A DNA stretch of 64,000 bases, taken from Salinicoccus halitifaciens (lineage in GTDB: Bacteria > Bacillota > Bacilli > Staphylococcales > Salinicoccaceae). This document shows, in pieces, positions 54,958 through 55,884 of the stretch. Every line of letters begins with the position of its first letter. Position 1 is the first letter of the stretch. Made by a program: the position numbers and the translations under genes. The stretch spans positions 310,001 through 374,000 of the forward strand of contig NZ_JAJNCU010000001.1 of the NCBI RefSeq assembly GCF_021026095.1. Reading direction: 5' to 3'. Under the pieces are notes generated by a model. The model had not been told where the DNA came from. It ran no database searches and saw only the letters and a program-made list of their open reading frames with translations.

Positions 54958-55452
54958 TTGTATCTAGTAGGAGACAACATTTTTTATCCAATGCATGGTG
55001 CAGGCAGGATCGACGCGATCGAAGAAAAAGAAGTCTCGGGAGAAAAGCGGCAGTATTATATTATCCATATGATTGATGATAATATGAAAGTGATGATTCC
55101 AAAGGAGAAGGTTTCCAAGTCGAACATCCGTCTTGTCACAGATATGGATACGGTGAAGGAAATTATAACTATGATAGAGACTGAGGAACCGGATAAAGAG
55201 CTTCCATGGAAACAAAGGTTGAAAGCCAACGAGGACAGGATAAAAACAGGCAGCCTGAAAGCATGTATCGAAGTGGTTTACGCTCTGATGCATATGCAAA
55301 AAGAAGAGAAGCTGAATTCAAGTGAAAAAAGACTGCTGAAGCAGGCTCAAAAATTCCTGATGAGTGAATTGAGACTGGTGGAAGGCATGGACAAGGATAA
55401 GAAGGATCAGTTCATCTCCAGATTGACAGAGGACCGTAAAGCCATTTCTTAA
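54958..55452 (+). CDS. CarD family transcription regulator
   Basis: 164-aa CdnL/CarD-type protein. The N-terminal Tudor-like RNA polymerase interaction domain (about 1-55) begins LYLVGDNIFYPMHGAGRI and has KVMIPKEKV, and the C-terminal helical domain (about 80-160) can contact DNA at the upstream edge of the promoter bubble. Known members stabilise the open complex. The start is TTG 54958 with GGAGGCG upstream. It is the last gene before the 532-nt structured intergenic region. Confidence 0.92.
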   Translation: MYLVGDNIFYPMHGAGRIDAIEEKEVSGEKRQYYIIHMIDDNMKVMIPKEKVSKSNIRLVTDMDTVKEIITMIETEEPDKELPWKQRLKANEDRIKTGSLKACIEVVYALMHMQKEEKLNSSEKRLLKQAQKFLMSELRLVEGMDKDKKDQFISRLTEDRKAIS

Positions 55453-55544
55453 ACATGCAATTTGCATATATAAGGACCTTTTCTGCATAAATTGTTGCAC
55501 AATATTACAATCAGATTACAAATCAATAAAATAGGTTTTATCCC

Positions 55545-55573
55545 TTGAAATGAGAATCAGATTAAAATATAAT
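55545..55573 (+). promoter_or_regulatory. Consensus sigma-A promoter without a protein gene downstream
   Basis: TTGAAA (55545-55550), exactly 17 nt, TATAAT (55568-55573). It predicts a start near 55580. No credible coding region follows for over 400 nt. Confidence 0.82.
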
Positions 55574-55579
55574 GAAGAT

Positions 55580-55728
55580 AACATAACAAGGACGTCAACG
55601 AATCATTCCTATATAAATATTCGTTTCATCGACGCCTTCCGATAGAGGACACTGCTTTGTCCTCTAGATATCATATATTATATTATTTATCTGTGAAAGA
55701 GACTGGATATCCAGTCTCTTTTTTTTTG
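55580..55728 (+). ncRNA. Candidate small regulatory RNA of about 150 nt
   Basis: Bounded by a consensus promoter (55545-55573) and a strong terminator (AAGAGACTGG / CCAGTCTCTT, then a T-run, 55698-55728). Inside are two more hairpins. One has CGTCAACGAAT paired with ATTCGTT plus GACG across a 5-nt bulge (about 55592-55634). The other is AGAGGAC/GTCCTCT with loop ACTGCTTT (55644-55665). There is no ribosome binding site with a start codon giving a credible protein. I do not recognise a known RNA family. Confidence 0.72.
55698..55728 (+). terminator. Terminator of the candidate small RNA
   Basis: AAGAGACTGG / CCAGTCTCTT 10-bp stem, 4-nt loop ATAT, nine to ten T. Confidence 0.92.
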
Positions 55729-55743
55729 TGCATTAAAATCAAT

Positions 55744-55794
55744 GCCCGGAATCATGAAAGTTTCGACGTTTTTGGGAGTATCATGATTCCCGGC
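55744..55794. repeat. Imperfect inverted repeat in the CarD-amidohydrolase intergenic region
   Basis: GCCCGGAATCATGA and TCATGATTCCCGGC pair in 13 of 14 positions around a 23-nt loop. There is no T-run. It may be an RNA stem or a protein-binding site. Confidence 0.65.
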
Positions 55795-55884
55795 TCATCT
55801 ATAATTTCCTATATCCACGCCGCACCGGTCTTAAACATATATAATATATAAAAGCTATCTGAGGCTTGATGAAAATTGGACAGT

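Follow-up and report, generated by a model that had tools for sequence, protein, structure and literature searches.

In the 64,000-nt stretch of the Salinicoccus halitifaciens genome analysed here (the window), positions 55580–55728 appear to encode one member of a small RNA family that spans the whole bacterial family. Members occupy two sites, site A downstream of radC, which holds the copy in the window, and site B immediately before mreC. We consider it probable that this is a family-wide small RNA that is activated by WalR at site A and most likely acts in trans. At the level of sequence, the evidence consists of the architecture of the gene, its conservation and covariation, its presence at two loci and an operator that it shares with cell-wall genes. 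WalR, the essential cell-wall response regulator, would bind at 55504–55520, upstream of the −35 box, and activate transcription, and the RNA would be a stand-alone transcript ending at its own terminator.

The gene lies in the 532-nt gap between the stop codon of carD (55452) and the ATG of an M20 amidohydrolase gene (55985; amidohydrolase by Pfam), where the initial annotation had noted a consensus promoter, two hairpins and a terminator. Both the promoter and the hairpins preceding a terminator are borne out. TTGAAA-17-TATAAT matches 11 of 12 consensus positions and ranks first among the 12 promoter-like sites in 2 kb (5.0 ± 2.0 in shuffles), and the 149 nt from position 55580 fold at −44.3 kcal/mol, compared with −23.2 ± 3.4 kcal/mol for shuffled sequences (z = −6.2, 0 of 200 as good). 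The strong terminator stem and the T-run also stand, the stem (55695–55722) being 12 bp long and not 10 bp as first given; of the nine T at 55719–55727 the first four are paired inside the stem. A loop described as 8 nt long proved to be the 6-nt loop of SL2 (CTGCTT). Downstream of the promoter of the window copy we found no Shine-Dalgarno and start codon pair with a credible frame, as had been stated before; the only frames listed are one of 31 aa, which starts upstream of the predicted transcript, and one of 64 aa, which begins with TTG and runs through the terminator. The locus thus combines its own promoter with an intrinsic terminator and has no long reading frame, as expected of an intergenic small RNA gene. 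From 5′ to 3′ the parts are ACATAACA, SL1, GATAG, SL2, CTAGATATCATAT with its AU-rich continuation (SL3, with a large loop) and the terminator, and the coordinates are collected in Table 1. The annotated feature should extend upstream to 55504, so that the operator is included. Directly 3′ of the terminator, an inverted repeat, CCCGGAATCATGA...TCATGATTCCCGG, can be seen by eye at 55737–55800; it is also present in the closest relative (L007).

Table 1. Predicted features of the small RNA locus, in positions of the window.
Feature	Position	Strand	Basis or remark
Direct-repeat operator ATTACA-N5-ATTACA, WalR type (predicted)	55504..55520	+	ends 24 bp before the −35 box
Sigma-A type promoter TTGAAA-17-TATAAT	55545..55573	+	consensus match; kept in relatives
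Predicted small RNA	55580..55728	+	about 148–149 nt; start inferred from the −10 box
SL1, closing stem AAGG(A)CGUC/GACGCCUU	55588..55638	+	sequence varies by clade, pairing mostly kept
SL2, stem (U)AGAGGACA/UGUCCUCU(A)	55643..55666	+	flanks GATAG and CTAG nearly unchanged
CTAGATATCATAT	55664..55676	+	identical in 42/42 elements, but elements were selected by CTAGATATCATAT
SL3, short AGAUA/UAUCU stem with large AU-rich loop	55666..55692	+	weakest helix
Intrinsic terminator, 12-bp stem and nine-T run	55695..55727	+	fold; compensatory changes

The direct repeat upstream of the promoter is the single match in the window to DTWACA-N5-DTWACA. Of the 44 elements, 23 carry it; these are without exception site-A copies, and they come from four genera: 5/5 Lacicoccus site-A copies, 8/8 Jeotgalicoccus copies, 9/10 Salinicoccus site-A copies and the one copy of genus g2. 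No repeat is seen at site B (0/17), in Phocicoccus (0/2), in one decayed copy (0/1) or in the site-A copy of S. albus. As site B, Phocicoccus and the S. albus copy lack the operator, control by WalR would not be universal. The strict RTTACA form (ATTACA-N5-RTTACA) is present in 22 of the 23 operator-bearing elements, and one half of the g2 repeat reads TTTACA. In an alignment of the upstream regions, which took in only operator-bearing rows (18 of 23), both TTACA halves are unchanged, with a variable spacer and variable flanks. Four of the nine operator-bearing Salinicoccus site-A copies add a third repeat that continues the 11-bp register. The −35 box lies 24 bp downstream of the operator in Lacicoccus (5/5) and Salinicoccus (9/9) and 23–25 bp downstream in Jeotgalicoccus (8/8); in g2 the interval is 14 bp, one helical turn less. 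A repeat of the form TGTWAH-N5-TGTWAH, in either orientation and close to a promoter, is what a WalR operator should look like, and such a repeat is found here. In Staphylococcus aureus, WalR recognises the motif TGTHH-N6-WGTNDD, and WalR sites upstream of the −35 box are associated with activation (PMC10746227). The repeat at 55504–55520 fits both this operator and the activating position. The operator of CiaR is TTTAAG-N5-TTTAAG; inspection by eye revealed no TTTAAG repeat in 55400–55600.

The loose form of the repeat occurs at 28 sites in the genome of the window, compared with 9 for the reversed pattern. For the strict form there are 27 sites in five genomes of three genera: six in the genome of the window (taken from the loose list) and 21 in four relatives vs 6 for the reversed pattern, a control that covers these four relatives only. 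Five of the 27 sites, one per genome, precede the small RNA. Another 14 precede genes with the Pfam families LysM, CHAP, NlpC/P60, Amidase_2 or M15/VanY, two of the 14 sitting before one gene, and five precede one type of lipoprotein without a Pfam family (likeness judged by eye). The last three lie before genes for a protein with an aggregation-promoting-factor C-terminal domain, a solute-binding protein and a protein without Pfam match. The lipoprotein type, which carries the strict operator in five genomes (L122, L177, L183, L184, L186), probably belongs to the WalR regulon as a so far uncharacterised member. The genome also contains walR (452 bits, cut-off 340), and the operator thus stands at cell-wall hydrolase genes in a genome that encodes the regulator. 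The gene set behind the strict repeat has the profile of a WalR regulon.

The same family-wide RNA could instead be governed by PhoP or another OmpR-type regulator reading the repeat, which would place it under phosphate or other stress control. PhoP boxes are TT(A/T/C)ACA repeats, with a spacing similar to that of the WalR-type repeat, and a PhoP-like paralogue is encoded in the genome (second NF040534 match, 282.9 bits). The likeness of the boxes, the TTTACA half in g2 and the location, by eye, of some loose TTTACA/TTAACA sites upstream of phosphate- or teichoic-acid-linked genes would agree with control by PhoP. However, the strict RTTACA form that characterises 22 of 23 RNA genes is shared with LysM, CHAP, NlpC/P60, amidase and carboxypeptidase genes. 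This gene context favours WalR over PhoP as the reader, short of proof, and we consider the PhoP explanation unlikely. In the genome of the window, loose TTTACA/TTAACA sites were noted at L125, L129, L130 and L138, upstream of genes that by eye look linked to phosphate or cell-envelope polymers; these sites are perhaps PhoP boxes that can be separated from the RTTACA sites.

A BLAST search with 281 nt retrieved, in the genome of the window, the element itself and a second copy 23 kb further on, between an ABC-transporter gene and mreC. The element was matched in 30 of 60 genomes, the own genome included; 27 of these belong to the family of the window, and the matches in G045, G051 and G053, outside the family, were marginal and partial. 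A gapped pattern scan of named genomes gave 37 stretches, of which 35 are in Salinicoccus, Lacicoccus, Jeotgalicoccus and Phocicoccus, and the other two (Roseivirga, Vibrio) were read as chance. The distinct elements collected number 42, the two chance matches having been dropped before all counts. A covariance search had been proposed by the initial annotation, and a model of the 3′ half (R1, built from 24 of the 42 elements) matched 28 of the 33 family genomes. The remaining five, from g3 and g5, were recovered with a Phocicoccus-derived pattern at 0 mismatches, and three of these show the full element upstream of mreC; R1 is blind to all five despite the presence of the RNA. All 33 family genomes examined, from six of six genera, therefore carry the element. 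Among 157 genomes of the order, these 33 included, no relative outside the family held up. The R1 matches in G070 (E 0.023) and G056 (E 0.039) are without GATATCATAT and were read as chance, and GATATCAT is absent from about 1.1 kb upstream of mreC in 8/8 sister-family loci. Since R1 failed on g3 and g5, a diverged relative may exist beyond the family. NCBI taxonomy places Lacicoccus in Salinicoccaceae and still has Salinicoccus in Staphylococcaceae.

No part of the window reaches the gathering score of any Rfam 15 family (0 matches). When the 281 nt were scanned permissively, FasX (31.6 bits, E 0.0009; gathering 100) and McaS (23.4 bits, E 0.038; gathering 42) aligned from SL2 to the terminator; membership in either family was rejected, since the scores are far below gathering. 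The proposal of a probable new small RNA, from which this work set out, is thus strongly supported: the element is family-wide, its stems covary and it has no Rfam family at threshold.

The gene order around the elements is comC, radC, site A, variable genes, site B, mreC. For 36 of the 42 elements the flanking sequence examined contains comC, radC, carD or mreC, each time on the strand of the element; for the other 6 it contains none of these four genes. Site B is followed by mreC in 17/17 cases, and full-length matches are centred at +553 to +576. With R1, two full copies were found in 5 of 6 genomes of the Lacicoccus group and in 11 of 12 Salinicoccus genomes, and a single copy in Jeotgalicoccus (9/9) and in the g2 genome; with the pattern, one copy per genome was found in g3 and g5. 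The second copy in G026 (L118), a site-A copy that has the stems without the operator, the short frame described below or the T-run, is apparently decaying. The gene 3′ of site A varies by genus (M20 peptidase, RtcB, transporter-like and others), and the RNA is kept.

An element in this setting might, instead of acting in trans, serve as an untranslated leader or an attenuator for the gene that follows it, the amidohydrolase at site A and mreC at site B. All landmark genes do lie on the same strand, and mreC is without exception the gene 3′ of site B (17/17). However, the gene after site A changes between genera while the RNA stays, which argues against a cis-acting leader. Furthermore, a terminator-like hairpin ends each copy, and an extended −10-like sequence, TGGTATTCT, can be seen by eye between site B and mreC. 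We therefore regard a leader as improbable.

Eleven of the 12 Salinicoccus site-A copies (L021, L030, L032, L040, L044–L050) contain AGGAGG, followed after 7–8 nt by ATG and exactly 21 codons; the exception is the decayed L118. This frame is open in 11/11 copies, and the two remaining forward frames are interrupted in 9/11 and 11/11. The 21-residue peptide is not conserved, with a pN/pS of 1.20 vs 0.73 and 0.77 in the other frames. A conserved open frame without a conserved peptide is a further oddity of Salinicoccus. The AGGAGG of the frame pairs with GCCUCC in the 3′ arm of SL1, so that the ribosome-binding site would be sequestered in hairpin 1. We take this arm, GCCUCCUUU, to mimic the anti-Shine-Dalgarno end of 16S rRNA. 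No such frame is present in 32 of 42 elements, the window copy included; among these 32, two flagged matches fall in SL2 and that of the window runs through the terminator. Bacillus subtilis SR1 is a dual-function small RNA with a short frame and a ribosome-binding site. The Salinicoccus site-A RNA resembles it in having both, and differs in that its peptide is not conserved and the window copy is without the frame.

The frame with its AGGAGG in 11 of 12 copies could mean that the Salinicoccus transcript, and perhaps its ancestor, functions mainly as an mRNA for a small protein, and that the RNA structure does no more than control translation. Set against the lack of peptide conservation and the 32 of 42 elements without a frame, this is very improbable. 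A more speculative version of the small RNA reading, to which we give little weight, is a translation-gated small RNA within the essential WalKR regulon, in which cell-wall signalling would be combined with translation capacity. In Salinicoccus, WalR would drive transcription of the RNA and a ribosome translating the 21-codon frame, whose sequence would be arbitrary, would melt SL1. The ribosome would then stop inside the 5′ arm of SL2, and the nearly invariant CUAGAUAUCAUAU would be exposed.

The structure of the RNA is kept by compensatory change in the terminator, in SL2 and in most of SL1, and not in SL3, in a comparison of hairpin arms among relatives such as the initial annotation had called for. 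The alignment used to measure covariation comprised 24 of the 42 elements; the 18 left out were from Phocicoccus, near duplicates and others. In these 24 sequences 93% of cells are paired in the named structure, compared with 41–55% with a slid partner, a comparison that favours the named structure since it was named from folds of the same 24 sequences. Changes on both sides of a pair occur in 45 cells vs 13.3 ± 3.5 in shuffles (24 of 42 elements). Of the five measures compared with shuffles, two give weak signals: pairs with double changes number 8 vs 5.9 (14/500 shuffles as high), and pair types number 18 vs 16.6 (118/500). The eight double-change pairs are distributed over the terminator (6), SL2 (2) and SL3 (0). 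For SL1, native arms pair at −9.9 kcal/mol (n = 42) and arms crossed between clades at −4.7 kcal/mol (n = 1,414), with the exception of the 5′ arms of Lacicoccus site B and Phocicoccus, for which a 3′ arm from another clade is the better partner. In genus g2 (L115), GGCAG...CTGG replaces GATAG...CTAG, a compensatory change from U-A to C-G. RNAalifold predicted only 4 pairs on the full MAFFT alignment, a low yield that we put down to misalignment of SL1. Because of this misalignment the 3′ half was modelled with a structure drawn by ourselves, and the arms of SL1 and SL2 were compared between clades by script. A chance structure or a functionless mobile repeat, which one might suspect in an AT-rich region where short hairpins arise by chance, is very unlikely in view of the fold (z = −6.2), the compensatory changes, the operator at fixed spacing and the occurrence in 33/33 family genomes as one or two syntenic, not dispersed, copies.

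The most constant part of the RNA is the AU-rich GATATCATAT, which is nearly invariant, and the loops of SL1 and SL2 are not conserved between paralogues or genera. The g2 copy, which was found without selection on this stretch, has CTGGATATCATAT in place of CTAGATATCATAT. SL3 with its AU-rich loop is a candidate region for pairing or protein binding. The initial annotation had suggested that the loop ACTGCTTT and the exposed stretches CATTCC and GCCTTCC pair with ribosome-binding sites. The variation of both loops speaks against this, and GCCTTCC is not fully exposed, being partly paired within SL1. Thus, of that first description the small RNA has been retained and the mode of pairing has not; the AU-rich GATATCATAT, the second copy, the mreC neighbourhood and the operator were not part of it. 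It had also drawn attention to hfq, which is indeed in the window, recognised by motif near 15.9 kb and about 40 kb from the RNA. A link to Hfq was dropped, as no finding ties it to the RNA.

A search for mRNA partners gave no conserved target, the complements of the conserved stretch not recurring at gene starts across genera. In the genome of the window the exact complement ATATGATATC has 20 matches, two of which are the RNA genes themselves, compared with 2 for the reversed sequence; most of the other matches fall inside genes. The best case at a start site, L168 (glutathione-peroxidase-like by eye; −20.3 kcal/mol), was rejected because it does not recur in three relatives, and its rank among start regions is biased since it was taken up because of the seed. 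Five mRNAs of the WalR regulon rank 31st or lower among 158 start regions of the own genome with every segment tested; two further WalR genes lie outside the 158 regions scored. At G000:C1:70839-70867 there is a perfect complement, 18 nt long, of the AU-rich stretch; it sits just before the terminator of another intergenic element, which precedes a sugar-transferase-like gene (G000:C1:70700-70900; L006 700–900). Since only one relative shares this region, the complement was not retained as a conserved partner.

The nearest precedent for such a family is the streptococcal csRNAs. Each genome encodes several of these related intergenic RNAs, every one with a terminator of its own. They belong to the regulon of the two-component system CiaRH, which affects beta-lactam resistance and autolysis, and they were predicted from the promoter signal of the regulator together with a terminator, Northern blots confirming those tested (PMC3091779). 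Their targets include comC (PMC4507080). The RNA described here is similar in being intergenic, in having several copies per genome with their own terminators and in its predicted connection to a two-component regulon, but differs in its WalR-type repeat, its lineage and its three hairpins with an AU-rich conserved stretch. In S. aureus, a related family, RNA regulators tied to WalKR are SprX, an antisense RNA to yycF and the vigR 3′UTR (PMC9266662, PMC8698359 and PMC9217812). SprX and the antisense RNA act on the walR/yycF mRNA, and the vigR 3′UTR overlaps the WalKR regulon downstream (isaA), whereas the RNA gene described here would itself be the target of the regulator. A review from 2022 counts five S. 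aureus two-component systems as controlling small RNAs (PMC9266662, section 6.2); WalKR is not one of them. Among the matches listed from openly licensed literature, including the parts available of PMC10746227, PMC9266662, PMC4959528, PMC13204101, PMC8698359 and PMC9217812, no small RNA is reported as a direct WalR target. Openly licensed literature on Salinicoccus small RNAs or Jeotgalicoccus sRNAs yielded nothing relevant by title and start of abstract. Going by its sequence, the RNA would be of a known kind and belong to a new family, with a link to WalR that we did not find in openly licensed print.

WalKR is the only two-component system that is essential in S. aureus (PMC10746227) and is described as present in all Firmicutes (PMC9210968). 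From the features above we infer transcription of the RNA, binding and activation by WalR, action in trans and the region of pairing. The action in trans would most likely proceed through the AU-rich stretch that begins with CTAGATATCATAT, either by pairing with mRNAs or by binding of a protein, and the WalR signal would thereby reach genes to which WalR does not bind directly. The RNA probably helps to tune the cell wall. If this is true, a post-transcriptional arm would be added to cell-wall control, in the form of a concrete gene with a sister next to mreC.
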